NCBI RefSeq assembly: GCF_008727925.1
Contig: NZ_VTWT01000004.1
Coordinates: 1 to 64,000, forward strand
Length of the DNA: 64,000 bases
Reading direction: 5' to 3'
From: Adhaeribacter soli
GTDB taxonomy: Bacteria > Bacteroidota > Bacteroidia > Cytophagales > Hymenobacteraceae
How positions within the stretch are numbered: the first letter of the stretch is position 1; each line of letters begins with the position of its first letter. Shown here in pieces: positions 25,778-52,035 of the stretch. The notes beneath the pieces were generated by a model, which saw only the letters and a program-made list of their open reading frames with translations, was not told the origin of the DNA and made no database searches. The position numbers and the translations under genes were made by a program.

Positions 25778-25781
25778 GGGT

Positions 25782-28931: not shown

Positions 28932-29860
28932 ATTGGATTGCCTTAAAAGCGTTACATGAAATTTACGAGCGAGGGGAAACCAAGAAAAAGGAAACCTTAA
29001 TGAAGGATAGTCAAATTCTCTTCCTTTTACGACAAACTGGTGAACTTAAAGATGGCGTAAGCACAATTTTTAAGGGTGATGGATTTGATGCCTATTATCA
29101 AAAAAGACATTTACAAAAGTTTCTGAATTATAATCGATTTTTGGAAAATGTAGGGCTTTTGACACCGCAGTTACGTTATCAGGAGTCTGATATTCAAGTC
29201 TTAATGGAGTTGCAGAGTGGGATGGCAAGTGGTGAGCTAGTTCCAATCCGTGATGAGATCATCCAAGCAGAGGAGACAGTTAGAGGCGTATCCCAGATGT
29301 TTTTTAGAAATGAAAAATATTTGGAAAAATCGGAAAGCCTATTACGCGCAGTAAAAAATATCTTAGGCATTGCCGAACTTGCTAATGATAAAGAACAGCA
29401 ATACAAGTATGTTTTGCAATGTCATAAGCCTAAAAAGATTGTACTTTGCGAAAACCTAGACTTTTTAAAGCGACCTTCCAAGCCTAGAAAACACAATATT
29501 GAGCTTTGGTATGCTGGTGGTAAGAACATCGATAAGCTTAATTATATTGGAGAGGTCAGCTTACCGATCTTTTATTCCTGCGATTGGGACTATGATGGCT
29601 TACTTACCTATCAAGAGGTAAAGAAAAGAATACCTTCTATCCGATTATTGTATCCAAATGGAACATCAAAAAGTATAGTGCAAACTGAGCACAATAGCCA
29701 ATGGCAATCACCTTCTAACCCTAATTTATTATCTGGATTAGACCCAGCATTTTATTCCGCCAGCGAGAAGTCATTAATAGTGAGCTTAATAACTGAGAAT
29801 AATTGGATAATGGAGGAAACCAACGATTTGGTACGAATGGTAGAGTCAATGAAAAATTAA
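28928..29860 (+). CDS. jetD: Wadjet-like JetD (Toprim-type nuclease)
   Basis: A 310-residue protein with an N-terminal helical/winged region and a C-terminal Toprim fold: glutamate 175 in VLCENLDF, then the acidic cluster in FYSCDWDYDGL (219-223). Family knowledge: JetD is related to topoisomerase VI subunit A and cleaves DNA held by JetABC. This one is shorter than many JetD proteins, mainly at the N-terminus, but the Toprim acidic residues are present. It starts within the jetC stop codon. The convergent helicase gene ends 70 bases beyond its stop, with no clear terminator hairpin between them. Confidence 0.85.
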   Translation: MNWIALKALHEIYERGETKKKETLMKDSQILFLLRQTGELKDGVSTIFKGDGFDAYYQKRHLQKFLNYNRFLENVGLLTPQLRYQESDIQVLMELQSGMASGELVPIRDEIIQAEETVRGVSQMFFRNEKYLEKSESLLRAVKNILGIAELANDKEQQYKYVLQCHKPKKIVLCENLDFLKRPSKPRKHNIELWYAGGKNIDKLNYIGEVSLPIFYSCDWDYDGLLTYQEVKKRIPSIRLLYPNGTSKSIVQTEHNSQWQSPSNPNLLSGLDPAFYSASEKSLIVSLITENNWIMEETNDLVRMVESMKN

Positions 29861-35323: not shown

Positions 35324-35548
35324 TTAATTAAACCCTTCGGAAAAGAACTCAGTCAAAGTGATGCCTAGATAAGAGCAAATAGCTTCTAACGTGCTAATGG
35401 TAATGTTGGCTTTACCAGATTCAATGCGGGCAAGGTGAATGCTGGTGTCATGGTAGAAAACCTCAAGTGTGACCTTCTTCGCTTCCCGAAGTTGTTTCAC
35501 CCTTGCGGCCACTGCATCAATAAGTTTCTGATTTTTAATTCTAGCCAT
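35324..35548 (-). CDS. XRE-family helix-turn-helix regulator
   Basis: A 74-residue protein, MARIKNQKLIDAVAARVKQL..., with an HTH of Cro/C1 type (VTLEVFYHDTSIHLARIESGKANI) and the usual C-terminal YLGITLTEFF. I chose the start at 35548. The longer frame to 35611 would run across a palindrome that looks like its own operator (35589-35604). It lies 95 bases upstream of the restriction-enzyme chimera on the same strand, a typical place for a controller (C) protein of a restriction system. Regulation of that gene and of the divergent gene is inferred. Confidence 0.75.
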   Translation of the reverse strand: MARIKNQKLIDAVAARVKQLREAKKVTLEVFYHDTSIHLARIESGKANITISTLEAICSYLGITLTEFFSEGFN

Positions 35549-35588
35549 GCCTTGCCGTGCAAGCTGCAAAGCCTTCCCTAAAATTTTA

Positions 35589-35604
35589 ATGACATATTTG
35601 TCAT
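35589..35604. promoter_or_regulatory. Palindromic operator candidate of the XRE regulator
   Basis: ATGACATATTTGTCAT: arms ATGACA and TGTCAT around TATT. It lies about 40 bases upstream of the regulator start and about 60 bases upstream of the divergent gene at 35664, so a protein bound here could control both promoters. Confidence 0.55.
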
Positions 35605-35663
35605 TATGCATTCTTTCCTGTATAATTGAGTATTGTTATACTGGTAAGCCAATAAAAGGGACT

Positions 35664-36272
35664 ATGAAGCCACAAATAATCAGCAGAGAAGAGATTATAG
35701 AGAAAGACGGAAATGAAGATCAGGTTACCCGCTGGTACTTCTCAAAAGATGGAATTCATGAGATAAACCTGGGGAATTTATTGGGTGAAAGAATAATGGA
35801 ATGCGATTGGTTGGATGAAAAGGAAACTACGCTTCTAGTAAATTATAGCGACTGGGCATCCAATTCTGTTTATGCACTTGTATCTCAGGAAGGTAAGGTT
35901 TTTAGAAAGTCGATTACTTTTATTGAAGAGTACATAGAGGAGCACGAGGTAATGATTGCCAATATTATGGGGAAAAGTTTAGGGATGGAAAACCTACACT
36001 TCAACATGGATGAAGATGATAGAAAGGTAGTGGTATTGGACAAGAGGGGCAGGTTAATTTTAGAGCCAAGGTATAAAGAAATCGGTTTTATTGAGGAGAG
36101 GCAGTGTTTCTATGCCATTACTGATTATGACCAAGAGCAGTACTTTTATCCGAATGGAGAAGAGAATGAAATGGAGATGATCAGAAGGGAGAAATTGATG
36201 AAGTTGAAGCGGGATTTTAGGCACTTTAAAAAGAGCAGTTTCACTTTTAAAAATTCTCTGTTTTTAAAATGA
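35664..36272 (+). CDS. Hypothetical protein with WG-repeat-like stretch
   Basis: A 202-residue acidic protein, MKPQIISREEIIEKDG.... I chose the ATG at 35664. The upstream in-frame extension is cysteine-rich and overlaps the regulator and its operator. Repeating beta-type segments (YALVSQEGKVFRKSI, VVVLDKRGRLILEPRYKEI) resemble WG/KWG-type repeats, which are common in Bacteroidota. No signal peptide, helix or catalytic motif is seen. It is divergent from the XRE regulator. Function unknown. Confidence 0.6.
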   Translation: MKPQIISREEIIEKDGNEDQVTRWYFSKDGIHEINLGNLLGERIMECDWLDEKETTLLVNYSDWASNSVYALVSQEGKVFRKSITFIEEYIEEHEVMIANIMGKSLGMENLHFNMDEDDRKVVVLDKRGRLILEPRYKEIGFIEERQCFYAITDYDQEQYFYPNGEENEMEMIRREKLMKLKRDFRHFKKSSFTFKNSLFLK

Positions 36273-37425
36273 CTTGAAATACTTTTTGCTGATAAAGATT
36301 CGAGGCGTAAAAGAGGGAACATAGATCAGGATTTGCTATTTTCCTATGATTTATAGGGTAAACCTGAATCAGGGAAAATCCTCCTTAAAATCCATTTGTG
36401 TTGCTGGAAATACAACTTGTCTTAGGAGTAATTAGCTCCCAAACCCGGACGGACTAAACTTGAGTAAACTCTAGAAGTTAATTTTGCTCCCATTTTGCGC
36501 TGGTTTATAGCCTTTTTTGGGTGGAGAAGGACCTGTTCAGATTTACTGAAAAAGGGAAGAGATTTTTTGAGGAAAAAGAGCTCTGTTTCCGTCAAAGTTT
36601 TTGCTTTTCTAGCTAGCCAAAAACTAGAAGGCTGATGCGGTGCTTTTTTATTCTCCTGTAAAAGGGTGTAAAACGGTGATAGAAAAGATGTTGTATGGTG
36701 GTTTGTGAGTAGAAAAATGGCGTCTAAAATGTGGGCTTTTTGGTCAATAAAATCTCCCTGATTCCAACGCCTGCTTGTTGGCTCCTCCTAGGGTATATTT
36801 TTCTTCCAATTCAACAGTAGAATTAGCCTTAAAAACAGCTAAAAAATTTGCTTTCGTGGTTCTTGCGTTCGCCTGATACTTTTAAGACCTAAATGGGAGC
36901 TAAAAGAAGCCGAATAATGGTCAGTTTTAAGCTTTTTACCCTCGTTTCTAAATTTACCACTTTTGTAATTGTACTATTTGTTGGGAACAGAAACACAAAT
37001 TCTCAACTACAAAAAGCCTTGTTTTTGATCTGATTTTTCATATCCTTTTTCGTTTTGTTTAATGGAATGTAAATAGCTTGAAGCCATCGAGTTAACTCAT
37101 GTGCTTTTGTCTCAAAATATTCGCTAAAATCGGGCTGCTTAACTCTAACTATTTTTCATTGACGTCCATTCGTTGTTTTATTGCCTGATTCTAAGAAATT
37201 AGCTTGTTTTTGCTTCCAATTTTCAGTGTTTCCCTGTTTTTCCTACTTTTTCCCCAAGATTTTGATCCTTTAAGGTGGAATCTTCGCAAATATTTCTTTT
37301 CGCCATAAAATCATTAGCAGCTCACGTTTGAGAAAAAAAGCACACCATAAATGTTGTGAAATAGGAAATAAAAAATAACCTTTGCGATATAAAGATAAGT
37401 AGCCAAAAAGGCTGCAGCTTTCTCT
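36273..37425. other. 1.15-kb gene-free region before the integrative element genes
   Basis: No reading frame with protein-like composition on either strand. It is rich in T-tracts and contains several short repeats of AGCTCCCA/GCTCCCAT type (about 36426, 36489, and inverted near 36896). Its length and position upstream of a DNA-binding protein and two recombinases would suit a regulatory region or an element end, but I could not define a boundary or att site. Confidence 0.4.
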
Positions 37426-38367
37426 ATGAAATCTACCTTCCTTCCGGATCTTGAATTCACTACCGTTTTGGAGTATGTTCAGTTTTTTGAGCGGCTTCAG
37501 GAGCCCTTGTTTACCTTAAAAGATGCCGGGCTGGTTTCGAAGCTTTTTCAGGACTGGCAGAAAGCTGGCCTCTGGTATCAGCCTTACGCCCCAGGCGAAA
37601 AAAGGCAGTGGACCAGGCTGAACCTGGAAGAATATACGTGGCTTAAATTTATTCAGCAGCTCCGGCAGCTAGGCGCTTCAACTGAGATAATTCTAAGCGT
37701 TAAGGAATACCTGTTTGCCTCTTTAGACTTAGGTGCTTACTTAAATGAGCCGAAGTACAAAACACTTGCTTTAGAAGAAATAGAGAAATCCTCACTTCCT
37801 AAGGAGAGTAAAGAGATTATAACCGGATTAGTAAAGTCAGATGAGTTTACCAAGCAACTGGATGCTATGGGGCTGCGGATCAGTCGGCTATTCGTGATGC
37901 TATTTTCTTCAATGATCCGCCACCAGGAAACCGGCGTATTCGTCTTTCCGGAAGGGGAAGTATTGATGTGGGCAGATGAAGTGTTAACTATTGATGCTGA
38001 TGCCATTGAGCTTTATCACCGGTCCCATATTTACCTATCCATTTCCCAGCAATTTGTCTCCTTTTTGCTGGAGCCCGAGAAAGAGAAGTTTATTTCCCCG
38101 CTTCAGTTGCTATCGAATGAAGAGCGGATGGTGCTGAATGCCATGCGCGATAAAACGCTCAAAAAGATCAAGATTAAGCTTAAAGGAAGAGATAAAAGTG
38201 GCAAGGCTAAATATACCCTGATTACCACCAAGGATGGAAAGATGAGCCTGGAAGATTACCGAAGGGTAGCCGGCAGCCTGGTGAGCAAGAATTATGAAAG
38301 CATTGTAGCTAAAAACATCAACGGCACCGAAGTTTACTTTGAACGGGAGCGACGGCGAATGCTGTAA
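37426..38367 (+). CDS. MerR-like DNA-binding protein of an integrative element
   Basis: A 313-residue protein. Residues about 25-90 resemble a MerR-type winged helix (FTLKDAGLVSKLFQDWQKAG, then a WTRLNLEEYTWLKFIQQLRQ stretch). The middle is helical and hydrophobic, and the C-terminus is very basic (KTLKKIKIKLKGRDKSGKAK). It lies upstream of a small hypothetical gene and a serine recombinase on the same strand, and it probably regulates or assists that recombinase. No catalytic motif is seen. The specific family is not recognised. Confidence 0.55.
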   Translation: MKSTFLPDLEFTTVLEYVQFFERLQEPLFTLKDAGLVSKLFQDWQKAGLWYQPYAPGEKRQWTRLNLEEYTWLKFIQQLRQLGASTEIILSVKEYLFASLDLGAYLNEPKYKTLALEEIEKSSLPKESKEIITGLVKSDEFTKQLDAMGLRISRLFVMLFSSMIRHQETGVFVFPEGEVLMWADEVLTIDADAIELYHRSHIYLSISQQFVSFLLEPEKEKFISPLQLLSNEERMVLNAMRDKTLKKIKIKLKGRDKSGKAKYTLITTKDGKMSLEDYRRVAGSLVSKNYESIVAKNINGTEVYFERERRRML

Positions 38368-38543
38368 AGCTTAAGAGAGGTTAAAACCTAGAATGAAGTA
38401 AATGATTAAAATATTTAACTGCTGTAATGCTGTACCAGGCCTGAGCCTGGCAGCAAGCAAAGGACCTGATTACCTCAGGCCTGATTAAAGAACCTGGCTG
38501 CGTGGCTGATAACCTCAAGCGGTAGCTGTAAGCGTTCAAACAC

Positions 38544-38957
38544 GTGTTACTTTTAACTAAACAAAACAGAGATCAAGAAAAAAATCAAAGCCAAAAAGAA
38601 AGTCAGGAGCAAAGTTTAACCAAAGCAGCGTTTTCATTTGGTAGCAGAAGAAAGAAGGAGGAGAAACCATCCTTATCTGATGCTTTACTTGAAGTTATTG
38701 CCTCAACTCCCGGCTATGAAGATTTACCGCCTGAAGAGTTAGAGGAAGTGAAAGAAGGGTTGCTGGAATTTGCCCGAATTTCCTATAGCATTTTTCAAAA
38801 GGAGTACCTGCCAGAAGCAGATGAATTGCCGCATGAAGATTCCGAAGGAATAGATATTTCAATTATTCATTCTAAAGATCGGGTAAACAATACGAAAACA
38901 GCCAAAGCAGTAAAGCCTAAAAAGCAATCTATTAACCAAAAAGTAGTAGTTTCTTAA
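38544..38957 (+). CDS. Hypothetical charged protein before the serine recombinase
   Basis: A 137-residue protein starting at GTG (there is no in-frame ATG at all). The N-terminus is glutamine/lysine/glutamate-rich and probably disordered. A short helical segment follows (LSDALLEVIASTPGYEDLPP, then EELEEVKEGLLEFARISY), then a lysine-rich tail. It ends 12 bases before the serine recombinase, so the two are likely co-transcribed. It could be an accessory factor of the recombinase; nothing shows this directly. Confidence 0.5.
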   Translation: MLLLTKQNRDQEKNQSQKESQEQSLTKAAFSFGSRRKKEEKPSLSDALLEVIASTPGYEDLPPEELEEVKEGLLEFARISYSIFQKEYLPEADELPHEDSEGIDISIIHSKDRVNNTKTAKAVKPKKQSINQKVVVS

Positions 38958-38969
38958 GTAGAAGAAGTC

Positions 38970-40565
38970 ATGAATGATTTAAAATATTTTGAAGCCTTCA
39001 CGAAGGTTAAGGATTCAGCTAAAAAAAGACAAGACACTAACGCTTTAATCTATACCCGTGTATCCTCCAAAGAGCAGGCTGATACCGGCAATAGCCTGGA
39101 AACACAGCTAAAAGCCTGCGAAGAGTATGCAGCCCGCAAAGGTTATGAAGTGCTGGAGCATTTTGGCGGTACGTATGAAAGTGCCAAGGACGATGAAAGA
39201 AAGGAGTTTCAGCGGATGCTCAATTTTATTAAGCGTCATAAGAATAAAGTTGATACAATTATAGTCTATACCGTAGACCGCTTTTCCCGCACGGGTGGCA
39301 ATGCCATTTACCTGGCAGAGAACCTCAAAAAAGAAGGTGTTCGGCTGGAATCCTGCATGCACCAGATTGATACTTCCACTGCTTCGGGTGAGCTTAATCA
39401 AGGCATTCTGTTCCTGTTTGGTAAGTTTGAAAATCAACAGCGGCGGGAGAAATGCATGGCCGGGATGATAGAAGCCCTGAAGAAAGGTTATTGGATGGGG
39501 AAGGCTCCGATGGGCTATGACTCCGTGATGCGCAACGGGCAGCAGCAGATGAGTATCAATAAAACCGGTGAGTTGATAAAGCAGGCTTTTATGATGAAAA
39601 TCAAAGAAGGCCTGAGTAATACAGCAATCATTGCTAAGCTTGGTAGAATGGGCTTGTTTCTCCACAACCAGACACTGACCAAGATCTTCCGCAATCCTTT
39701 TTACTGCGGTATTATTACCAATAAGCTCTTGGGAGCTGAAGTGGTAGTAGGCAGGCACGAGCCGCTTATTTCGAAGGAAATCTTCTTTAAGGTAAACAAC
39801 ATCCAGTCAGCTAATCCCCAAGGCTACGTAGTGCAGCAGGAAGATGAAAACCTGCCGCTTCGCCAGCATATCAAATGTGACTGTGGAACGATGTTCACAG
39901 GTTACGAAGTAAAGAAGAAAGGGCTGCATTATTACAAGTGCAACCGCATAGGTTGTAAATGTAATAAGAGTGCCAAAAGCCTGCACCAGCAGTATGTGGA
40001 TCTACTGAAGATCTACCAGATAGATCCAAGGTTAATGCCGGCCTTAAAAGTGGCTTTAACCGGGGTGTTTGATGAACTGAATGCGCAGCAGCTTGAGCAG
40101 CAGAAAGAATTTAAACGCCAACTGACGGAAGTTGAAAAGAATCTGGACAAGCTTGAAGAACGCTACATCTTCGAAGGTCTGAATAAAGATCTTTATGAGA
40201 AATATAGTGTAAAGCTGAAGGGGGAAAGAAAGGAAATAGAGGTAGAACTGGAGAAAACAGAAAAACCGCTATCGAACCGCAAAAACTTCATCGAACTGGG
40301 CCTGAAAATGGGCGTAAACCTCTGTGAATCATGGGAAAAAGGAGATTACAGGGAAAGGCGAAGAGTTCAATCTGTGGTGTTCCCGGAAGGAGTGACTTTT
40401 GACAAGGAAAAACAGGGTTATCGAACCTCCAGAGTGAATGTTTTTTTTAGCTTAACTGCTTTATTTTCAGAGCGATTGAAGGAAATGAAAAAGGGAAAAA
40501 CCAGTGATAAACCTGATTTTTCCCTTTCAGTAGTCCATAGGGGACTACTATTGGCTTTGCAATAG
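38970..40565 (+). CDS. Large serine recombinase
   Basis: A 531-residue protein: resolvase catalytic domain with LIYTRVSSKEQ (catalytic serine 32), the arginine-containing VYTVDRFSRTGGNAIYLA, and the recombinase domain GKAPMGYDSVM to FRNPFYCGIITN. Then come a zinc ribbon (CDCGTMF ... YYKCNRIGCKC) and a coiled coil (about 370-430). Family knowledge: large serine recombinases integrate or excise phages and transposons between short att sites through a serine-DNA intermediate. All key residues are present. An 11-bp inverted repeat (AAAGGGAAAAA, 40490-40500 and 40517-40527) lies in its 3' end and could act as a terminator. Confidence 0.9.
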   Translation: MNDLKYFEAFTKVKDSAKKRQDTNALIYTRVSSKEQADTGNSLETQLKACEEYAARKGYEVLEHFGGTYESAKDDERKEFQRMLNFIKRHKNKVDTIIVYTVDRFSRTGGNAIYLAENLKKEGVRLESCMHQIDTSTASGELNQGILFLFGKFENQQRREKCMAGMIEALKKGYWMGKAPMGYDSVMRNGQQQMSINKTGELIKQAFMMKIKEGLSNTAIIAKLGRMGLFLHNQTLTKIFRNPFYCGIITNKLLGAEVVVGRHEPLISKEIFFKVNNIQSANPQGYVVQQEDENLPLRQHIKCDCGTMFTGYEVKKKGLHYYKCNRIGCKCNKSAKSLHQQYVDLLKIYQIDPRLMPALKVALTGVFDELNAQQLEQQKEFKRQLTEVEKNLDKLEERYIFEGLNKDLYEKYSVKLKGERKEIEVELEKTEKPLSNRKNFIELGLKMGVNLCESWEKGDYRERRRVQSVVFPEGVTFDKEKQGYRTSRVNVFFSLTALFSERLKEMKKGKTSDKPDFSLSVVHRGLLLALQ

Positions 40566-40711
40566 TTTTTATGTCTTTACAATATCTTTAATTTTATATT
40601 GGATATCAGTGTTTTAAAGAAATAGTGTGGATAAATAAATATAGTGCTAGTATAGTGAAGTAAAGAAAAGTTGTACGCATATTTGTACGCACTATTCAAA
40701 CCACGTACACA

Positions 40712-42088
40712 ATGGGCTACTCCATCAACCTGTATTTAGACCGGGCTATTTCCGAGAAGGAACTAACCCGTTTGCATGCTTCTCAAGACCAAACTGCAAG
40801 AAAGGAAGCAGAACTGCAAATCGCTACCAAACCCCTTCAAATATTCCTTTACCTCCGCTTCCCTAAAAACACACTTAAGGTTTTTGTGGAACGTAAAGCT
40901 ACCCAAAAGCAATGGGATGCAGGCAAGCAAAGGGTCAATCCTAACTTTTACAAAGCAGGGCCTTCCGAGCTTAACCAGTACCTGGGCAACCTGCTAAATG
41001 ACGTTCAAAAATTACATGAGGCAAACTTACTGGTAGGCAAACAGACAACCCGGGAGCAGCTTCGCGAGATCGTAGACAAACTTAATTTAAAAGAGAAAGA
41101 AACCGGGCCCAAAGCAGTGTCCTTGGATGAAGCTTATAAAGAGTTTCTCCGGTTGGCAGATCATCTTAAAGCAGCCAATACCAAAAAGAACTACGTAACT
41201 GTTTGGAATCACCTTGTAAAGTACACCCAGGAAAAAAGAAAGCCTCTTGACTTCTCCTTATTTACTTCCAGCTTCCCGAATACTTATTCTGAATACTTAG
41301 GCCAGAAGGCTGAACTTGGTTACAATACCATTGGCAAGCACCTGCGCATCCTCAAAACGTTCCTGTTCTTCGCTACCGATGAACGTAACTATAACCAGCT
41401 CCAAGAATTCAGAAAATGGAAAGCGCTTTCCGAAAAGGAAAAAGAAATCTACACCCTGACGAAAGAGGAGTTGATGAAGCTCTACAAACATGAATTTGAG
41501 CATTCCCGGCATGCCCAGGTGCGGGATGTATTCTGCTTTGCCTGCTTTACCGGCTTGCGCTTTTCCGATGTCGATAATCTGAAATGGGAAGCGATTAAAA
41601 AGGATCACATAAAAGTGCTCCCGGTAAAAACCCGGCACCGGGATTCCAAGGCTATCAATATTCCCTTGAACAGCTTTGCCCAGGAAATATTAGCCCGCTA
41701 CAAAGGGAAAGATAAGCCACTGCCGGTGATCAGCTCTCAGAAGTCGAATGAGTACCTAAAGGAAATAGGGCAGCTTTTAGAGTTTAAAGATCCGGTGAAA
41801 GTTTTAAAGCATGTTGGTAGCAGCACAAAAGAAGAATACGTTGAGAAATGGCAGATCCTGACCTTTCACGTTGCCCGGAAAACTTTTATTACCACCTCGC
41901 TCATTTTGGGAATGCCTGAAAGAGTCGTAAGAGAATTCTCCGGCCATAAATCAGAAAAGGATTTTGCAAAGTATGTAAAATTAGCGGACACGTTTAAAGA
42001 GCAGCAAATGCATCAGGCCTGGAACGAAGATGCCTTCAAAGAAAAGCCCGCTTCTATAAATATGAAAAAAAGTGTAACAGTTAGTTAA
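40712..42088 (+). CDS. Tyrosine recombinase / integrase
   Basis: A 458-residue phage-type integrase with an N-terminal arm-binding region, a SAM-like core-binding domain (about 140-235) and a catalytic domain. Catalytic residues: arginine in FTGLRFSDV (about 282), lysine in TRHRDSKAINIPL, HxxR in FHVARKTF, histidine in FSGHKSEKD, and tyrosine in AKYVKLAD (about 421). Family knowledge: such integrases move Bacteroidota conjugative or mobilisable elements. It starts 147 bases after the serine recombinase on the same strand. Having both recombinase chemistries next to each other suggests a composite or stacked element. Confidence 0.9.
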   Translation: MGYSINLYLDRAISEKELTRLHASQDQTARKEAELQIATKPLQIFLYLRFPKNTLKVFVERKATQKQWDAGKQRVNPNFYKAGPSELNQYLGNLLNDVQKLHEANLLVGKQTTREQLREIVDKLNLKEKETGPKAVSLDEAYKEFLRLADHLKAANTKKNYVTVWNHLVKYTQEKRKPLDFSLFTSSFPNTYSEYLGQKAELGYNTIGKHLRILKTFLFFATDERNYNQLQEFRKWKALSEKEKEIYTLTKEELMKLYKHEFEHSRHAQVRDVFCFACFTGLRFSDVDNLKWEAIKKDHIKVLPVKTRHRDSKAINIPLNSFAQEILARYKGKDKPLPVISSQKSNEYLKEIGQLLEFKDPVKVLKHVGSSTKEEYVEKWQILTFHVARKTFITTSLILGMPERVVREFSGHKSEKDFAKYVKLADTFKEQQMHQAWNEDAFKEKPASINMKKSVTVS

Positions 42089-42212
42089 CTGTCCAGATAC
42101 AACTTTATAAAATTCTTAATTTTACATTTAGATAGAGTGTCCACACAAAAGGATTTATCTTTTTTCATTGTTGCAGCCGATGAGGAAATTACGGATGAAG
42201 CCTGTAATCAAC

Positions 42213-43328
42213 ATGAAACACTTTAATCAAATACAATTTTTAATGAACACAACAACAATTAACTATTGGAAAGGTGAATATCCCGAAATTCAAGAAGAGC
42301 TGCATCGGGTCGTTAAAATGGCTTATCATAGCGGGGTAGCTACTGCAAACTGGATCCTTCCTTCGTATCTGGACCAAACCGCCATTGCTTCTACAGAGGA
42401 AACTTTCAGGCTATCCCTGGAAGGCCATTTAAAAACGCAAATGGAGTTAAGGCTCTCCTTAAACAATCCATTCAGATTGTTAAGCGGGGATTTAAGTTTG
42501 GAGCAGCTAGCTGAAAAGTTTTCCAGAGCTTATCTATCAACATCCTCTCCTGAAGAAGTACTTCAATGGCTCAAGGGGGTAGACATGTATGAGGTCCGGG
42601 TTACTGATTTAGCAGTAGGTGTTTCCCATTACTTACTAAGGAAAGAACTAGTTAGGATTCTAAGCATAGGCTATGATGGCTGGATAATTGAAAATGAAAA
42701 TATTTCTACCGAAACAGAAGTTACGAATCTTTCTGATGAAGACCAATCTAATGCAGAGAACAAAGAACTTGATGCTTTCAGTCCGGCTGAAAGAGTAGCG
42801 CCAGAAGGTAGTAGCCCAGAGGATAGTAATGGAATCAAGCGACAAAAGAAGAAGAGCCCCAGAGCTGAGGCGATGGAAAAGTTGCATGGATTCCCTTGGA
42901 TAAACGAGCCAACTAAACTGGCTATAATCAGCATTCATAATTATCTTCTAGAGAATAAAATGATTGAGCCTTCTCTCTCAGAATCTGATTTAAGGGCTCT
43001 TTTCTCCGAGAAAGGCCCTTTAGAACCGATTCGATTTTTAAAAGCTTCCGGAAAGCTAGTGATGCTTTTTAGATTGCTCGCAATGGATGTTTTAAAATTT
43101 TCAAACAAAGGGCCGATCTTGGATGAGTTTTCCAAAAGTGAAATCAGGAGCTCCTCTTACTGGCTGTTCCCTCGACTGATAGGCACCTTTAGGAATAAAA
43201 AGGGTGAAAAGTATAATACAGACCAGCTTTCTAAATCAGCCAGTCAATGGCAGGTAGACAAACTACAAAAAATGGACTGGTTTATACAAATGAAAGAAAC
43301 CCTTACGGCTGCCTGTAAACCCAGGTAA
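42213..43328 (+). CDS. Hypothetical protein of the integrative element
   Basis: About 371 residues from the ATG at 42213. Alternative in-frame starts are 42180 and 42243 (MNTTTINYWKGEYPEI), the last of which gives the cleanest N-terminus. Helical, with a charged linker (KRQKKKSPRAEAMEKLHGF) before a C-terminal domain. The position after the integrase recalls RteC/Tra-type accessory genes of Bacteroidota elements, but I do not recognise a domain. It ends just before a strong terminator. Confidence 0.55.
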   Translation: MKHFNQIQFLMNTTTINYWKGEYPEIQEELHRVVKMAYHSGVATANWILPSYLDQTAIASTEETFRLSLEGHLKTQMELRLSLNNPFRLLSGDLSLEQLAEKFSRAYLSTSSPEEVLQWLKGVDMYEVRVTDLAVGVSHYLLRKELVRILSIGYDGWIIENENISTETEVTNLSDEDQSNAENKELDAFSPAERVAPEGSSPEDSNGIKRQKKKSPRAEAMEKLHGFPWINEPTKLAIISIHNYLLENKMIEPSLSESDLRALFSEKGPLEPIRFLKASGKLVMLFRLLAMDVLKFSNKGPILDEFSKSEIRSSSYWLFPRLIGTFRNKKGEKYNTDQLSKSASQWQVDKLQKMDWFIQMKETLTAACKPR

Positions 43329-43941: not shown

Positions 43942-44253
43942 ATGTCACAGAAATTCTTTTTCCAACTAAGCCTTGAAGAAGCAGAGGGCTGCTTTAAGAA
44001 ATGGGCGCAGCAGGCGCTGCTGCAACTACTCCACCAAGGGCAAGGCCTTTCACTGGCAAGCCCAAATCCCTCAAAAGAAGAAGATGTCATTACAATTGCT
44101 GATGTCTGTAAGCTTTTCAAAATCTCCCGGCCGACAGTAAACGATTGGATGAAGACCAATAAGCTTCCATACAGGCGCATAGGTAGAAGGGTTTATTTTA
44201 TCAGGCAGGAAATACTGGCTGCTTTACAATCCTTTAACCGGAGAGCTAAATAA
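43942..44253 (+). CDS. Excisionase-like helix-turn-helix protein
   Basis: A 103-residue protein. The C-terminal half is a MerR-type excisionase domain (TIADVCKLFKISRPTVNDWM, then KLPYRRIGRRVYFIRQEIL), the form found in Xis/HTH_17 proteins. The N-terminal part is a short helical extension. Family knowledge: in Bacteroidota mobile elements these proteins bind near att sites or origins and steer excision. The phased repeats at 43471-43520 are a natural candidate target. A 35-codon frame overlapping its stop codon (44253-44360) is too short to support. Confidence 0.8.
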   Translation: MSQKFFFQLSLEEAEGCFKKWAQQALLQLLHQGQGLSLASPNPSKEEDVITIADVCKLFKISRPTVNDWMKTNKLPYRRIGRRVYFIRQEILAALQSFNRRAK

Positions 44254-44515: not shown

Positions 44516-45004
44516 ATGAAGAAGTTAAAAGATCTTACGCTGCCGGTTGCAGGTAGGGTAAGCCCTGATTTAAAACAAAAATTTGAGAAAGCTGCCGATG
44601 AGCTTGGTTTAAGCTTAGCGCAATATGTATCCATGATGCTTTACCTGGCAGAATATAGTGAAGCGGGCCTTTATAAAATAAAATCACAGTTACTAGGGCC
44701 TGTTAAGAAAGAGGATCCTCAATGTAATATTCGAGAAAAGAAAGATAAAGCGGTTTGGGAAAAAGCTCCATTTTCCGATATGCTTTCAGCTGTTCTTAAG
44801 AATGAAGAGATACTAGCAGAAATTTATGTTACAAATGGTAACAAGCCGATATTGAGTAATGAATTGGTAAAAAATGGTTTCAAGTACAATGTTCTTTTGC
44901 AAGGTGAGTATCTGGAAAGCACTTATTACTATTATACCGGTTTGCACGGCTGGGCCTTTACCGACTCCTCTAAAAAGTATGTTGTAATTACTAAGAAGGT
45001 TTAA
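44516..45004 (+). CDS. Putative ribbon-helix-helix protein of the element
   Basis: A 162-residue protein. The N-terminus (LPVAGRVSPDLKQKFEKAAD, then ELGLSLAQYVSMMLYLAE) fits a ribbon-helix-helix DNA-binding fold, as in MobC/TraY-like or Arc-like proteins. The remainder is a beta-rich extension without a recognised motif. It is separated by three bases from a small membrane-protein gene, so the two form a unit. One GTTAC-N5-GTAAC site lies within the gene (44828-44842) and many more lie downstream. It is a candidate binder of that array (inference only). Confidence 0.55.
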   Translation: MKKLKDLTLPVAGRVSPDLKQKFEKAADELGLSLAQYVSMMLYLAEYSEAGLYKIKSQLLGPVKKEDPQCNIREKKDKAVWEKAPFSDMLSAVLKNEEILAEIYVTNGNKPILSNELVKNGFKYNVLLQGEYLESTYYYYTGLHGWAFTDSSKKYVVITKKV

Positions 45005-45006
45005 CC

Positions 45007-45213
45007 ATGGAAAATGTAGTTTTTGACATAAACCCGGCAGATCTGCAATTCGAAGGCACCCTGAAGGAGACAAGTGGTTTTTCAGGTATGAAAGGTGCTT
45101 TTATCCTGATTATATTATTAGTAGTTATTGGATTTCTATTCTGGTACTTCTTGAAAGAACCGGTCTATGAAGAGAGTCAAAACAGGTTTGAGAAATTAAG
45201 AAGGGTGCTTTAA
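45007..45213 (+). CDS. Small single-pass membrane protein
   Basis: 68 residues with one clear transmembrane helix (AFILIILLVVIGFLFWYFL, about residues 31-49) followed by a basic tail. It starts three bases after the preceding stop codon. No family recognised. Confidence 0.55.
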   Translation: MENVVFDINPADLQFEGTLKETSGFSGMKGAFILIILLVVIGFLFWYFLKEPVYEESQNRFEKLRRVL

Positions 45214-46231
45214 TTTGTACCCTATTTTTTTGCCCTGAATGAAGATGTGGCACAAAACTAATGCCAATATCCTCAAATTGCTTAGGTTTTTGTAGAGTGT
45301 TGAGTTAGAAATCAGAATGAATTCCAGAAAAAACTGAAGGAAATATCCTGCTAAGGTTACCATAAACAAGCCATCAACAATTCTATTGCCCTATGCCTGT
45401 CAAGGACACCTTCCTACTTAATCCTTACAAAGGCTAAGTACTAAAATACCCAGTGTATTTGTTGAACTCCAAAGAGTAAAGATAATCTAAAGCCGCATAT
45501 AGCTTTGGCAAACGATAATGTCCAGTTACAAATTGTAACATCAATATTCCACGGAATAGATCTGATGCAGAATAAAAGCTAACTGTAACGGAGGAACTGC
45601 AAAAGAGGCTAAAGGAAGAATAACCTATAGTGAAGTTTAAACTGTGTAAAAGAAAGAAGTTCTGATTATGCTACAGTCAAAGTAAGGCATCTGCCTTTCA
45701 CTAAACGTAAAGCCCTTTCGTTTTACTGCATAGACCATACCTAGCACTTTGCTTAAACTCCAAAATTTAAATATGATTATATTGGATATTCTATTGTTAC
45801 ATTTTGAAACCGATTGTTAACTTTTGTAACAATTTCAAACCTATAAGATTAAAATTGCTAAAAATTGTTTTTTCTTTAAGTCTTCCCGGATAATAGAGTA
45901 ACAATTTGTAACTCTAAAAAGCACCTGTCCTTTTGCAGTTAAATTTAATAGAAATTGCTTTTAAATGAAAGTGATTTTAGTCTTCAAAAATGTGTGTAAC
46001 TAATAGTTACTAGGGTTCTTTAGCTTGTTTTATTGGACAGAAGCTGCAAGGAAACCTGTTTTAATATTTACATCTTCAATGAAATTTACTTTATGCAGAA
46101 ACCATTCAAAATCTTCTGCTAACCTGCAACAACTTTTAAAATTATCGTATATTTATAAGGGCAGTTGATTGGTTAAACCATTTCATCCGTGATTGTCGGT
46201 CTAAGCAACCTAAATCGTATCAGAGTGCCTA

Positions 46232-46288
46232 TAAGCCGTTGGGCACCTGGCAAGCCTGAAAACCTTAGTCGGGAATGCGCCAACGGCT
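46232..46288 (+). other. Hairpin with long loop, possible structured RNA or element site
   Basis: AAGCCGTTGG (46232-46241) pairs exactly with CCAACGGCTT (46279-46288) around a 37-base insert that is more GC-rich than its surroundings. A T/A-rich tail follows. I do not recognise an RNA family. Confidence 0.35.
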
Positions 46289-46295
46289 TTATTAT

Positions 46296-46592
46296 TTAGT
46301 TTGTTACTAAAAGTAACAGGACTTTATAAGCCAGTAATTGGCTATTAATCAAACTGTATTTATTTCTGATATCTGCTGATTTTCGCGTAAGCTTTTTAAT
46401 CACTGAAGCTATCGTTTTTGTTCTTTCTGTTAAGAAATCTGCATGGTTCTTGAACTCCAAGTAATCCTGCCAAGCGTGTAAGTGGTACATATCTATCTTC
46501 TCTAGCACATCCAGTCTCTCCAAGTAAGGCAAGTATTCAGATGGGTGTTGATCTGGGATTGCAATTTTGTTGCTCCATTCTACTTAGGCATA
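46296..46592 (-). pseudogene. Start-less protein-like fragment
   Basis: On the minus strand the frame reads EWSNKIAIPDQHPSEYLPYL, then ERLDVLEKIDMYHLHAWQDY and TERTKTIASVIKKLTRKSAD, to a stop at 46296. Upstream there is a stop codon and no in-frame ATG or GTG. The composition looks like real protein, so it is probably the tail of a lost gene. Family unknown. Confidence 0.3.
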
Positions 46593-46860
46593 ATTCGCGA
46601 TCTGATTTTTATTCCTTTGCTCAGTAATGATGTTACCTTGCACCCATTCACTTGGGAAAAGATAATGCCGTACTAGAGCTGATTTCTTCTGTTTTAATCC
46701 TCCAGAAGTAGAACCGAAAAATTGTATTATCAACAAAGCTGTTGTAACGATTAGTAACAGTTTAATTTAAATCAAAAGCCACCGTTTTGCTAAATAAATT
46801 AATTAGTTTTGAACGATCTGGTTTGTTTTCCATTCATAGATTGAAACCAAATTATTAACT

Positions 46861-47092: not shown

Positions 47093-50000
47093 TTATTCAA
47101 ACTTTACTTTTGGCAAACCTTCCACAATATCAATGGTTTGTACGCTAACGTTTATAATGCTTAGCAATAGGTCCAGGATATATCTTTCATTGCCGGTTTC
47201 CATTGCCCAGTCGTTAGGGTCGTTTTTGATGCCGCTATCTTTGTGAGTGGTTACGGCATATCGTTCCATGATCCAGTCTATCGCGGATTTGCCGTTTACC
47301 ACGTAGTCATAGGCTTTTTCGGGAATGTTGGTTATGGTTATTTTGCTGTTGTAGAGGATGGTTTCTTTCTGGCCTTTTGTTGGGAAGCGCATTTTTTCTA
47401 CTTTATACATACCGTTTTCGGCTCCGGTAACGGTTACGCCTTCGTAAGCTGGCACATTTTCGTAGTTCAAGTGCAGGTCTGCAAGTTTGCGGCCGGCTTT
47501 GCTGAAGGCCCAGAAATCACGCACGTCCTCAACCAAAGGCAAGCGGGGTAACATTTTCTTGAGGTCGTTGGCGAACTGGGTGCGGTATTGTGGGCTATGC
47601 AGAAAACCGTACACGTAATAGAAAATGTCTTCCTTTTTTACGGTTTTACCATACTGTTTTTGCGCCCGTTCCAGGATAAAATCACTAACCCCATCGCGCC
47701 GGATGTATTCGCTTTCTCCAACAGCATCGAATAAGCCGGGGCTTTGCTTTTGCCGCTCTTCGTAATAGTAAAGTGGAAAACATTGCGATTTACCAATTAA
47801 TTCTAAATCAGGAATTGTATCGCAAATAATAGAAGAGAATTCTTTTGTAACTCCTACACCTGAAACACAGATAACTAAATTTTCAATATATTTTGCAGGA
47901 AATAGCTTTGGAATTAAATATACCATTTCGTTCAGCACTCTGGAAAAATATAAATGCTGTTTAAAAAATGGCCTATAAATACCTACTGTTGTATTAGTTG
48001 GGTCATATGAATGTGTCTTGTTTTTTTCTAAATCCCATATTAATGCTCTTGTCCAACTAATTTTCTTAGAATCAAATTTCAAAAAAGTTTTTACATCAGA
48101 AACAGGGTTATCCTCTATTACTTTATTTAACTCTTCTCGCTGGCTATTATAAAAATTAATCGAAGTTAGAATGTTGTTGTTTAAAACTTCTTTTGAAGAA
48201 TTATAGCACCAGGCATCACGTTGAGTTTTTACTCCATTCGAATAATAAGGCACAAAAAATGTTGCTTTGTTTGTTTTATCATCTTTATCCCCAATCGGAA
48301 CAAACGTACTAAATGCATCGTTCCGCTCATTTATCCAATCACCGTGTTCATTTGGAACAAGCGTTTTCCATTCCATTGCTTCGTTGCCGACAGATTTAAA
48401 CTTCTTTACAATTGCAAGCTTATCTTCCCGGCTTAAATAATCACCAATGTCGTGGTAATGTATAGTGGCTTTTTTTCCGTTTTCCATACTGTTTTTCACC
48501 AATAAGGTGATGGAAATGGGCGTGCGAGAACCGGAACCGAATATTTTACCGCCTTCTTTCCGGCTTAATTCGCCGCTGGTGCGCTGGTTGCCCCTTAAAT
48601 TGAAAACATAAATGGAAGAGAATTCTTTTTCTAAAGATTTCCGGAAACCGTCGGCACTGTTACCGTCTAACCAAGCCCCGTTAGAAACAAAGCAAATTAC
48701 GCCCCCACTTTTATCTATACGGTCAGCACTCCACCGGAAAGCTTTAATGTATGAATCGTATAAGGAATTTTTATTAGTAGCATTGGTCTCCTTTGCATAG
48801 GTAACTGCAATCCGGGAATCCAGTTTCGGGTAGCTTTGGTTTTGCGCATTGTCGTTGGCTGATTTCTGCCCTACCGAATACGGCGGGTTACCGATAATCA
48901 CACGCAGCGGCGCTTTCTTTTGCTTCTGTACCCGTTCGGAGTTTTGCGGGAACATTTCCGAAAACAGCTTTTCGCTTTCGTCACTTTCGCCTAACTGAAA
49001 GGTGTCGGTAAGGCAAATGCCGTCGAAGGCCTGATAATCTTCGGCCCCCACAGCATCGTGGTAAGCATTTTCGATGTTTACGGCCGCAATGTAATAAGCT
49101 AGCAAAACGATTTCGTTGGCATGAATCTCTTGCTGGTATTTGCGTAGCAGATCTTCTTTTTTAATCAGGCCACTTTGCAGTAAGCGGGTTACAAACGTGC
49201 CGGTACCGGTAAACGGGTCCAGGATATGCACGTTCTCATCGGAAATGCTGCGCCCGAATTCCTTTTTCAGTACATCGTTTACCGAATGGATAATGAAATC
49301 CACTACCTCAACCGGCGTGTAAACTATCCCCAGCTTTTCCACCATTTTCGGGAAAGCGGTTTTAAAGAACTTATCGTACAATTCAATAATAATGCGCTGC
49401 TTACCTTCGGAGTTGTCTATCCCGCTTGCCCGCATCTTCACCGATTCATAGAATTTCTGCAGCGTTTCGGCATCCTTATCGAAGTTCTGGTCTTCCAGCA
49501 AATCAAGCATGGTTTGCATACTCACCGAAATCGGGTTGTTCTGCACAAACGAATACCCTTCGAACAGAGCTTCGAAAACCGGCTTGGTAATAATGTGCTG
49601 GCTAAGCATTTCAACTGCTTCCTGCTGCGTAATGCTGGGGTTTATATTTTTCTGAAGGCCACCCAGGAAATTGGCAAAAGCTTTTTCATGGGTTTTATCT
49701 TCGGCAATTAACCTGCTTATGCGGGCAACCTGGCGTTCGGCAATTTCGGCTACGCTTTTTGCCCATTGCTCCCAATAGCGGCGGTCGCCAACTTTGTTTA
49801 CCATCCGGGCAAAAACCACGTTCTGCAACTGCTCAAACTGGAGCGCCAGCTGTTCGCTAACGGCTTTGGCCGCCACATAACCTGCCGGGTCGTCGTTTAC
49901 CACCGAAACCTGGCCATTCTGGTTAAAAGTTACTTCCGGCCGGCCGATAATGATGCGGTCGGTGCGTTTTTTATTCAGCTCAATTTTATTAACAGTGGCG

Positions 50001-50833
50001 TTAAAGCGGTCGTCGTGAGCACGTAAGGCGTTTAAAACTGTCCAAACTACTTTATAACGGTCATTATCGTCTAAGGCCAAGGCAGCATCCATATCGGAAG
50101 GCACCACCACCGGAATAATGATGTAGCCGTACTTTTTGCCCGGCGCTTTCCGCATAACCCGCCCAACTGATTGCACCACATCTACCTGCGAATTGCGGGC
50201 CGAAAGGAACATAACGGCATCCAGGCTGGGCACATCTACGCCTTCGCTTAAACAGCGCACGTTGGTAAGTACCCGGCATTCGTTTTCTTCGGTTTCCGCT
50301 TTAAGCCAGCTCAGCAATTCATCGCGGTAAGGGGCAGACATAGTGCCGTCTATGTGCTGCGAACCCACCGAAACCATTTTTACTTTTTTCTCTGTTGGCA
50401 AAGCGCTGATGTAAGCCTCCGTAGCGGAGTTGAAGGTGCCGGTTATTTTCCGGGAATCGGCAATATTAGAGCAGAAAGCCACGGCCCGGCGCATTGGTTC
50501 CGGATCACTTTCTTTCAGCAGGCCTTCGTCGCCGATCATTTGTTTGGAAAGCGCATTTATGCAGCCAACCAGTTTGGAGGCATCGTCGGTAGTAATTTCG
50601 CTTTCGTAACCGGCCAGCATTTTCTGCACGGCTGGCGGTACATCTTGGTCGCTTAAGGTAAGAATGAGCACTTTGTAATCAGTGAGCAAGTCCTTCTCTA
50701 CTGCTTCACCAAAACCAATGCGGTAAATTTCCTGGCCGTAAAGTTTTTCATCGTCCATCGAGCACAACACTGCATCGGCCTGGGCAGCCTTGCTTTTGGT
50801 ATCGTCACTATAAAGCCGGGGCGTTGCCGTCAT
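47093..50833 (-). CDS. Type ISP restriction enzyme, 3' part (helicase end, methylase, target recognition)
   Basis: 1246 codons continuing the gene at 50808-51956 in another frame. It opens with MTATPRLYSDD (helicase motif III), then VRCLSEGVDVPSLDAVMFL and QSVGRVMRKAPGK (motifs V and VI). A helical coupler follows, then an N6-adenine methylase with motif I VHILDPFTGTGTFV (about residue 530) and motif IV IIGNPPYSVGQ (about 648), and a C-terminal target-recognition region. Family knowledge: type ISP enzymes (LlaGI, LlaBIII) are single chains of about 1600 residues with nuclease, helicase, methylase and recognition domains. The downstream part could still be translated from the ATG at 50833 and keep methylation without cutting, but this is speculative. 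Confidence 0.85.
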   Translation of the reverse strand: MTATPRLYSDDTKSKAAQADAVLCSMDDEKLYGQEIYRIGFGEAVEKDLLTDYKVLILTLSDQDVPPAVQKMLAGYESEITTDDASKLVGCINALSKQMIGDEGLLKESDPEPMRRAVAFCSNIADSRKITGTFNSATEAYISALPTEKKVKMVSVGSQHIDGTMSAPYRDELLSWLKAETEENECRVLTNVRCLSEGVDVPSLDAVMFLSARNSQVDVVQSVGRVMRKAPGKKYGYIIIPVVVPSDMDAALALDDNDRYKVVWTVLNALRAHDDRFNATVNKIELNKKRTDRIIIGRPEVTFNQNGQVSVVNDDPAGYVAAKAVSEQLALQFEQLQNVVFARMVNKVGDRRYWEQWAKSVAEIAERQVARISRLIAEDKTHEKAFANFLGGLQKNINPSITQQEAVEMLSQHIITKPVFEALFEGYSFVQNNPISVSMQTMLDLLEDQNFDKDAETLQKFYESVKMRASGIDNSEGKQRIIIELYDKFFKTAFPKMVEKLGIVYTPVEVVDFIIHSVNDVLKKEFGRSISDENVHILDPFTGTGTFVTRLLQSGLIKKEDLLRKYQQEIHANEIVLLAYYIAAVNIENAYHDAVGAEDYQAFDGICLTDTFQLGESDESEKLFSEMFPQNSERVQKQKKAPLRVIIGNPPYSVGQKSANDNAQNQSYPKLDSRIAVTYAKETNATNKNSLYDSYIKAFRWSADRIDKSGGVICFVSNGAWLDGNSADGFRKSLEKEFSSIYVFNLRGNQRTSGELSRKEGGKIFGSGSRTPISITLLVKNSMENGKKATIHYHDIGDYLSREDKLAIVKKFKSVGNEAMEWKTLVPNEHGDWINERNDAFSTFVPIGDKDDKTNKATFFVPYYSNGVKTQRDAWCYNSSKEVLNNNILTSINFYNSQREELNKVIEDNPVSDVKTFLKFDSKKISWTRALIWDLEKNKTHSYDPTNTTVGIYRPFFKQHLYFSRVLNEMVYLIPKLFPAKYIENLVICVSGVGVTKEFSSIICDTIPDLELIGKSQCFPLYYYEERQKQSPGLFDAVGESEYIRRDGVSDFILERAQKQYGKTVKKEDIFYYVYGFLHSPQYRTQFANDLKKMLPRLPLVEDVRDFWAFSKAGRKLADLHLNYENVPAYEGVTVTGAENGMYKVEKMRFPTKGQKETILYNSKITITNIPEKAYDYVVNGKSAIDWIMERYAVTTHKDSGIKNDPNDWAMETGNERYILDLLLSIINVSVQTIDIVEGLPKVKFE

Positions 50834-51956
50834 ATACAGGCGCTTTTTTGGCTTTCAGGAAATTATCGTTGTGTACTTTGGTAAAAGCAGATTCATCTTC
50901 GCCAGCCAACGAAACGCCGGTAGTGCGGTGGGCTTCGTCGCAAATAATCAGGTCGAATTCCCCGAAGCCGTTTTTAATAAGTTCTTTCTGTGCCCGCGCT
51001 ATTACTTCAATGGATTGGTAGGTAGAAAATACCACCGTCATTCCTTTGCTTTCGCGGCCTATAAACTGGTTGAACTGGTGCAGAATATCGTTGGTATTAG
51101 TAGAAGCCGGCAATGCTAGATCCACTACGCTAAAACTGTCGCTGTCGTCGTTTTTGGTGCGTTTCTTTGAGATTTCCGGATCTGAGCAAATACAAACTGC
51201 GTTGATCGGTTCTTTAGCAAAGGCACTCCATTCACGTAAGGTCTGACCTAATAAGGCAATGCTAGGCACGAGGAACAAAACCATCCCATTGCCGCCTGTT
51301 TCTTTTTCGGCAATTTGCAGAGCAGTATAGGTTTTGCCGGTGCCACAAGCCATTATGAGTTTGCCCCGGTTGTTGGTTTTAAAATGTTTGTGGGCTTTGG
51401 CTAAGGCGTCTTCCTGGTGCGGCTTCAGTTTCCTATCACCAATTCTGGATTGTTCACCATGAATACCGTTCTCCAGCTTTTTCCAATCTACAGCGGCTTC
51501 ACGTAACTGGTACAGGTTTAAGCGCGTTACCGGCGGTGTTTGGTTTTTAATGGCTTCTTCAGCATTTGCACCCCATTTTTTACCGGTGGTATCTATCCAG
51601 AGCCGTTGCGCAAAGTTTACACTTTGCAAGTTCTCGTTTTTAAATGCCCGGCTGGAAGTGGAAAGAAAACTATCTACAGCCGGTTTATCGATGGTTTTTC
51701 CTTCCTGGTAGCATTTACACTGGATCGCCCAATAATCACCGTCGTGAGTCATAGCCACAAGGTCAATGCCCGTATCGTTGCCGCCTAGGTCTTCTTTTCC
51801 CGGGAACTCATTCCAGAGCCATACTTTCTTAAACCGGTCGGAATAAATCCGGTCGGTTTTTAAGTAAGCCTGCATCAACCTCTCAAAGCGGTCGCCTTTA
51901 TCGCGTTCAGAAAAAGAGAATTTGCGGTATTTGTCGAGTATTTTGTTAAAAGACAT
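50808..51956 (-). CDS. Type ISP restriction enzyme, 5' part (nuclease and helicase start)
   Basis: About 382 codons from the ATG at 51956 (MSFNKILDKYRKFSF); a GTG at 51971 is an alternative. A Mrr-like nuclease has D65 in GGNDTGIDLVAM and Q79/K81 in WAIQCKCYQ. Then come helicase Walker A MACGTGKTYTAL (202-213) and DEAH 340-343 in LIICDEAHRTTG. After FLKAKK the frame runs into APVYDGNAPAL and stops at 50808. Removing one base from the A6 run of the coding strand (50844-50849) would give KKRLYMTATPRLY and join it to the 3' part. So a one-base insertion split a single gene. It could be a true mutation, phase variation or a sequencing error. Confidence 0.85.
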   Translation of the reverse strand: MSFNKILDKYRKFSFSERDKGDRFERLMQAYLKTDRIYSDRFKKVWLWNEFPGKEDLGGNDTGIDLVAMTHDGDYWAIQCKCYQEGKTIDKPAVDSFLSTSSRAFKNENLQSVNFAQRLWIDTTGKKWGANAEEAIKNQTPPVTRLNLYQLREAAVDWKKLENGIHGEQSRIGDRKLKPHQEDALAKAHKHFKTNNRGKLIMACGTGKTYTALQIAEKETGGNGMVLFLVPSIALLGQTLREWSAFAKEPINAVCICSDPEISKKRTKNDDSDSFSVVDLALPASTNTNDILHQFNQFIGRESKGMTVVFSTYQSIEVIARAQKELIKNGFGEFDLIICDEAHRTTGVSLAGEDESAFTKVHNDNFLKAKKAPVYDGNAPAL

Positions 51957-52035
51957 GTGTTTTGGTAGCACTAATAATGCTTTGCAAAATAGGGCATTTC
52001 AGCCAATACTTCAGATTAAGGGGTAAAATTAATTA

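Follow-up and report, generated by a model that had tools for sequence, protein, structure and literature searches.

A phased GTWAC array in tRNA-Glu islands of Hymenobacteraceae and its candidate ribbon-helix-helix reader

Our results show that tRNA-Glu islands of Hymenobacteraceae carry a conserved array of GTWAC half-sites phased at 10 bp. Two complete islands of one genome contain it, and in G158, G184 C2 and G186 it lies next to integrases that share the att core of those islands. The stretch analysed, hereafter the window, is bases 1-64000 of contig C11 of a genome of 4.97 Mb in 16 contigs. We tentatively read the array as a conserved cis-acting binding site, recognised by the ribbon-helix-helix (RHH)-like protein coded at 44516, at which the islands could be maintained or silenced, and we put the chances of this reading a little short of even. 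The array and its sites are:

45214 to 46860, no strand: array region, AT-rich (34% GC), intergenic, with 15 GTWAC half-sites
44828 to 44842, + strand: GTWAC-N5-GTWAC dyad GTTACAAATGGTAAC, within the coding region of the 44516 gene
45525 to 45539, + strand: dyad GTTACAAATTGTAAC, exact match
45796 to 45830, + strand: dense block of 4 half-sites in 10-bp steps, 2 perfect and 2 with one mismatch
45898 to 45912, + strand: dyad GTAACAATTTGTAAC, exact match
45996 to 46010, + strand: dyad GTAACTAATAGTTAC, exact match
46303 to 46317, + strand: dyad GTTACTAAAAGTAAC, exact match
46744 to 46758, + strand: dyad GTAACGATTAGTAAC, exact match

The preliminary description of this DNA reported five perfect sites and an extra one at 44828, and all six are exact in the window. 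It also placed the chance expectation far below one, in agreement with the 0.11 exact GTWAC-N5-GTWAC sites expected in 64 kb against the 6 found, a number that 0/100 dinucleotide shuffles reached. Within the array region (1.65 kb), which contains just short ORFs of doubtful standing, the 15 half-sites compare with a mean of 2.76 in 20,000 dinucleotide shuffles of the same stretch, and the 5 exact 10-bp pairs with a shuffle maximum of 2 (91 shuffles with one pair and 1 with two; n=20,000). The dense block does hold four half-sites at 10-bp steps as first described, but just two of them are perfect (GTTAC, GAAAC, GTTAA, GTAAC). The site GTTACAAATGGTAAC is conserved in position in the C10 paralogue of the 44516 gene (L002:8949), a conservation that may be coding in origin.

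Genome-wide frequency and a scan of related genomes had been named beforehand as checks. The whole genome (4.97 Mb) contains 30 exact sites vs 11 for the backward-read pattern, and these are not uniformly spread: 6 are in the window, 4 at C10:244508-245464, which is the sole genomic cluster besides the window, 1 at C10:256449 in the paralogous gene and 19 elsewhere, two of which (C10:234185 and 236689) are also within the C10 island. The motif is present at related elements as well, so it is neither equally frequent across the chromosome nor missing from homologous elements. Although the region is only 34% GC, the explanation that the array is an artefact of chance or of composition in AT-rich DNA is refuted by the shuffles, by the footprinting of SRAP copies presented below and by G009, a genome of the same genus without an RHH relative, which has 11 sites vs 8 for the control pattern; we give it practically no weight.

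The preliminary description also proposed a one-turn spacing of half-sites, and the phasing is indeed strict. The 60 dyads of 11 loci show half-site distances of 10 bp (60), 20 (11) and 30 (4), with at most 2 occurrences of any other distance up to 60 bp, in counts that are not independent because the loci were chosen for 10-bp dyads and most are SRAP loci, several of them homologous copies. The same holds for the window stretch by itself, with distances of 10 (5), 30, 50 and 60 (one each), and for the C10 stretch by itself, with distances of 10 (3) and 20 (1); longer runs of half-sites retain the 10-bp step. The W positions of the 60 dyads combine as AA 22, AT 17, TA 13 and TT 8, which fits independence, and W is therefore not read asymmetrically and the half-sites fit self-symmetric units. 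The spacer is 81% A+T with AAWTT favoured, and a T before and an A after each half-site are common. We read the unit as a putative palindrome TGTWACA repeated every turn. The palindromic spacer places a second symmetry axis there, and a dimer across the dyad is thus also possible. DNA hairpins are unlikely, to judge from the W counts, since AA and TT half-site pairs cannot pair fully.

The claim that the array belongs to an integrative element was borne out. The genes and repeats around it are:

40529 to 40544, + strand: att core AGTAGTCCATAGGGGA at the left boundary of the tRNA-Glu island, ahead of the integrase
40671 to 40691, + strand: TTGTACGCA repeat in two copies spaced 12 bp, next to the integrase
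40712 to 42088, + strand: tyrosine integrase (domain matches Phage_integrase and Phage_int_SAM_5)
42168 to 43328, + strand: conserved element protein, function not assigned, 325-387 aa in relatives
43942 to 44253, + strand: HTH_17 / excisionase-like protein
47093 to 51971, - strand: cargo adjoining the array, type IIG restriction-methylation protein (PADLOC), whose two overlapping frames match adjoining parts of one PADLOC model (3-361 and 364-1640)

The other AGTAGTCCATAGGGGA copy is past the window, in the 3' end of tRNA-Glu (C11:77743-77758), and the core is this tRNA 3' end, which is found at two genomic places, C10:210469 and C11:77746, both tRNA-Glu genes. The window array is thus bounded within an island of 37 kb that runs from C11 40529 to about 77758, and the integrase end of this island is 5-6 kb away from the array. 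The second cluster lies within a 51-kb tRNA-Glu island (C10 210.5-261.9 kb), and each island has a tyrosine integrase and is flanked by direct repeats of the tRNA 3' end. With the tRNA-Glu cores known, a 13-bp direct repeat at 40594/45777 was discarded. The arrays of the window and C10 were placed in bounded islands, and those of G195, G162 (both on short contigs), G189, and G184 C1 and C23 were not. The AGTAGTCCATAGGGGA core, with at most small changes, precedes integrases at L002, L012, L014 and L017; in G158, G184 C2 and G186 the same core is beside the integrase, just the integrase end having been found, and the G167 array lies some 3 kb away from tRNA-Glu.

Since array and integrase travel together, the tyrosine integrase or its excisionase might use the GTWAC sites as arm-type sites, and G158, G184 and G186 do have two GTTAC words 11 bp apart before int. 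However, beside both cores of the window island there is instead a GTACGCA pair (40673/40685 and C11:77681/77693, each 12 bp apart), probably the integrase arm sites and distinct from the GTWAC array. There is no GTWAC within 350 bp before the window int, and the array lies 5-6 kb from the integrase, or 16-17 kb in C10. We reject this explanation for the window island and consider it very unlikely overall.

The core of these tyrosine elements follows the order integrase, 325-387-aa protein, HTH_17, O-like and DnaC-like proteins, RHH and small membrane protein, the O-like/DnaC-like pair being absent from the window and G184 C2 islands. Array and cargo come after the core genes, with the exception of C10, where the array is beyond the cargo, and dyad groups near the RHH gene number 5 to 8 per 1.5 kb in the window, G158, G184 C2 and G186. 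The presence of the O-like and DnaC-like genes before RHH in C10, G158, G186 and G189 suggests another explanation, in which the array consists of replication-origin iterons read by this module or by another initiator. Phased GTWAC runs also occur about 180-250 bp downstream of DUF5906 primase-helicase genes at 4 loci, and among the viral contigs listed there are runs in or beside genes that, judged by eye, look like those of phage primases (5 loci) or O-like proteins (4 loci). However, the array is present without the pair in the window and G184 C2 islands, so the plasmid-like initiator of the preliminary description need not act in cis; the pair is found at another locus of each genome and may act in trans. 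The sites are also spread over at least 1 kb and not contiguous, and 30 DUF5906 loci (from 71 places listed, with 1.5-kb flanks) yielded one 10-bp GTWAC pair and two loci with 9-bp pairs. We regard iterons as rather improbable. A general link to DUF5906, seen at the four loci and with a looser array at L056, was not borne out in these 30 loci beyond the pairs just given. An O-like trace in the array region scored E 0.008 with a small search target and E 0.05 on recheck, and was discarded.

Other features of this part of the chromosome deserve mention in their own right. A serine-recombinase region (XRE, 313 aa, 137 aa and recombinase; window 35324-40565) abuts the tyrosine island, and the 3' end of its recombinase runs into the tRNA-Glu core, an overlap also seen in G184 (L053:6078). 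Further upstream there are a GajB-/GajA-like pair (Gabija defence; 29931-34018, PADLOC E 2e-232 and 1e-282), to which the OLD/TOPRIM and UvrD pair in the cargo of the C10 island is related, and a four-gene run that includes a 1049-aa protein (23745-29860). None of these four proteins has a PADLOC match at 1e-5, but by order and size the run resembles a Wadjet/Mks operon. At 7905-10075 a PtuA-like ATPase (PADLOC E 2e-123) is followed by a 294-aa protein that is presumably its HNH partner (Septu).

Conservation of the sites is best seen at SRAP genes (PF02586). The seven island copies have dyads upstream (at least one between -31 and -308), at +121/122, near +550 and at +697/699, with two exceptions: the G189 copy lacks an exact dyad near +550, and no dyad remains at +697 in G184 C2. 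Dyads also precede SRAP-umuDC in G162 and G167. Altogether 9/32 SRAP loci have dyads and 23/32 do not, the 32 being 30 from a search matching 158 genomes plus L091 and L014. When six copies were aligned at three sites, leaving out that of G186, the GT.AC columns were invariant in 22/24 cases, compared with 2/6 for W, 6/15 for the spacer, 345/660 for other coding and 8/160 for other flanking non-coding columns. On this alignment, the sites are kept by selection in related islands. Sites are also found inside SRAP and just past its stop, and the G184 C2 copy retains five dyads despite two in-frame stops; taken together, these positions suggest that the sites are not operators only. A coding by-product of SRAP is likewise unlikely, since the 23 other loci have no dyads and the stop-bearing copy keeps its five.

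The same loci bear on another explanation, in which the sites are operators and their reader is a CI/XRE-type repressor (phage-like or diverged LexA-like) that works in cis or from a different island. At most array SRAP loci there are dyads no more than 75 bp away from the start codon, among them the run of four phased half-sites before SRAP-umuDC in G167, and the GTTAC-N5-GTAAC dyad has the geometry of CI/XRE sites. A CI-type LexA-like regulator of Bacteroidetes binds TTAC-AAATT-GTAA by EMSA, according to PMC8565304. In addition, GTTACAAATTGTAAC is common to the window, C10 and G158 arrays, and in G189 GTAACATAATGTTAC is found 27 bp before the start of an XRE gene (L087-L088), a region that also holds R-M genes and the SRAP array 33 kb from the RHH module. 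Set against this, no XRE gene was seen in the tyrosine-element core, independent W positions and runs of three half-sites are unlike simple HTH dyads, the arrays also lie within genes and past stop codons, and an exact dyad is present at 1/7 XRE promoters examined. A repressor of this type is unlikely in our view, and of the rival explanations it is the one we take most seriously.

That the repressor is the host's own non-canonical LexA is far less probable still. SRAP and umuDC are SOS genes preceded by array sites in G162 and G167, but S24 loci of nine genomes carry CTAA-N5-TTAG in 23/24 cases (3.3-kb locus), the sole S24 protein found in the window genome (E<=0.01) has two such boxes upstream, and in G162 and G167 umuD has its own CTAA box; no SOS gene was recognised by eye beside a dyad in 16 regions with dispersed sites. 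Among the S24 loci, the SRAP-umuDC operons of G162 and G167 are the two that have GTWAC arrays, and a single dyad stands downstream of S24 in the window genome. The boxes at S24 loci are in line with PMC8565304, where the LexA site stands at the promoter of the S24 regulator itself; in the array genomes GTWAC does not occupy that place. Host LexA was set aside as an unlikely reader, its predicted boxes at its own promoter being CTAA-N5-TTAG.

Two adjacent genes directly before the array point to a different type of reader:

44516 to 45004, + strand: ribbon-helix-helix-like protein, 162 aa, favoured candidate reader
45007 to 45213, + strand: 68-aa single-helix membrane protein, which starts 2 bp past the RHH stop

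The 44516 protein has a predicted CopG-like N-terminus and a C-terminal domain not assigned to a type. No RHH model of Pfam scored above its curated cut-off (RelB 14.6/22.4 for 44516, HicB 19.4/21 bits for the C10 paralogue), Foldseek alone gave zero matches at E<=0.001, and MazE7 matched at E=0.018. Structure comparison of residues 8-51 placed CopG in the top three positions (Z 4.4-4.6, rmsd 2.3-2.7, 40-41 residues), followed by other RHH antitoxins, with the caveat that the CopG Z is within 1 of that of unrelated chains matched to the other domain and that the AlphaFold mean pLDDT is 65. This protein had already been suggested as a possible reader, and with an N-terminus modelled as CopG-like (a weak fold match) it is the best candidate. 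Relatives were found in 8/204 family genomes at E<=1e-3 (six-sequence profile) and 5/390 order genomes at E<=1e-5, with none in plasmids and none in IMG/VR or GTDB contigs as searched by patterns of one protein. The family search gave 11 RHH places, of which G137, matching residues 81-140 only, was left out of comparisons. A one-helix membrane protein of 59-68 aa follows RHH in 10/10 elements examined, of two classes, starting between -6 and +6 bp from its stop.

The RHH proteins also differ at residues that could contact DNA, in a strand register that we take from CopG. Among five proteins with P10-A12-R14, four are coded near groups of 5 to 8 dyads per 1.5 kb, and the gene of the fifth (C10) shares a 51-kb island with its array, whereas with S or T at position 12 (n=5) four have no dyad and one has a single dyad in 20 kb, a correlation over just ten related proteins. 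Serine-recombinase elements (n=4) share only the RHH match with the core genes of the tyrosine elements, again with the small membrane protein next to it, and have ACAAWTTGT-like palindromes just upstream of their XRE-RHH-membrane genes; 11/17 ACW5GT words of four 20-kb loci fall within 320 bp upstream, a limit set post hoc. The XRE protein could be an equally good candidate reader of these sites. At the G158, G184 C2 and G186 arrays, where few spacers are free of C/G, the ACW5GT core shows no clustering; this makes the link to the serine class loose, slightly lowers the RHH reading and slightly raises the XRE and iteron explanations.

In the RHH reading, which we continue to favour, a 44516 dimer would bind each palindromic GTWAC, neighbouring dimers one turn apart would stack cooperatively, and clusters about 100-440 bp apart would become bridged. 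More speculatively, the co-translated one-helix membrane protein might tether the complex to the membrane, and the array might act as a maintenance (centromere-like) or silencing site and not as a simple promoter operator. Because it falls between genes in the window, at the ends of genes in C10 and in or after SRAP elsewhere, the array is unlikely to be a pure operator; the G162 and G167 arrays do sit at an operator-like position, and a possible 93-aa TTG reading frame starts inside the C10 triple, which, if the frame is real, would be operator-like. As functions, we infer a maintenance or silencing complex ahead of XRE operators, and these ahead of origin iterons. The 44516 protein stands as an unproven candidate because the SRAP arrays of G195, G162 and G167 occur in genomes with no RHH relative detectable at E<=1e-3 (G162 being 87% complete). 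Two further points count against it: the RHH protein of G189 has other contact residues and no dyad within about 9.5 kb, its SRAP array being 33 kb away, and 11 kb separate array and RHH gene in C10.

A bolder proposal, that array, RHH-like protein and coupled one-helix membrane protein form an NTPase-free, centromere-like tether of DNA to membrane that maintains or silences two element classes, seems doubtful to us. If the favoured reading is true, the array would be a conserved control or maintenance site of a defence-carrying tRNA-Glu island family in Bacteroidota, in which a residue of the RHH strand and the DNA half-site would form a small, testable code, and the RHH and membrane-peptide pair in two element classes offers a lead to a new mode of anchoring mobile DNA.

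Phased GTWAC runs are common in public data. Quadruple runs number at least 119 stretches in GTDB contigs (raw count) and at least 120 in IMG/VR vs 54 for the backward motif, and 45/80 viral loci have diverse spacers among the matches listed. The GTDB stretches L193 and L197 and the triple runs L046 and L048 lie close downstream of DUF3854/DUF5906 genes, by similarity alone in the case of L197. Phased GTAAC runs of L298, L302, L333, L345, L349 and other IMG/VR loci stop a few bases short of where a small zinc-ribbon-like gene begins, a phage group with 13 loci in one cluster among the matches listed (zinc-ribbon judged by eye). Non-identical phased GTTAC runs are found in Omnitrophota and other MAGs (L163, L172, L176, L183, L207 and others in GTDB), and clustering of the neighbours of GTDB runs gave few broad gene families in common.

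RHH proteins of the CopG/Arc/MetJ and ParR/TraM types bind short palindromic sites, and their dimers stack along one face of the DNA. The array resembles these systems in its palindromic sites, in the stacking proposed here and in a small element-encoded RHH protein, and CopG also by the fold match. It differs in the five-base GTWAC, the 10-bp steps, the several clusters over 1-1.6 kb, and the extra C-terminal domain and small membrane partner gene of 44516; no ParM/ParA or relaxase gene was recognised adjoining 44516, as judged without a profile search. Phage-inducible chromosomal islands and other tRNA islands have int, an excisionase-like gene, a tRNA site, defence cargo and, in some, an O/DnaC-like pair. 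All these features recur here, the O/DnaC-like pair again in some, and the window and C10 islands differ in their size of 37-51 kb. The preliminary description knew of no element with this motif, and a limited literature search found no published description of an element with a GTWAC-N5-GTWAC array, but relatives of the motif itself have been published. The site TTAC-AAATT-GTAA of the non-canonical, diverged LexA of E. anophelis, in PMC8565304, has the same core ACAAATTGT and a 5-bp spacer, but is a palindrome at the promoter of the CI-like S24 protein itself, whereas the LexA/umuD loci of the array genomes have CTAA-N5-TTAG. The GlnR box of actinomycetes, GTnAC-n6-GTnAC, as given in PMC3087709, shares the half-site and forms tandem runs of four in strong promoters; it belongs to nitrogen promoters of an unrelated phylum and has an 11-bp period, whereas the period of the array is 10.
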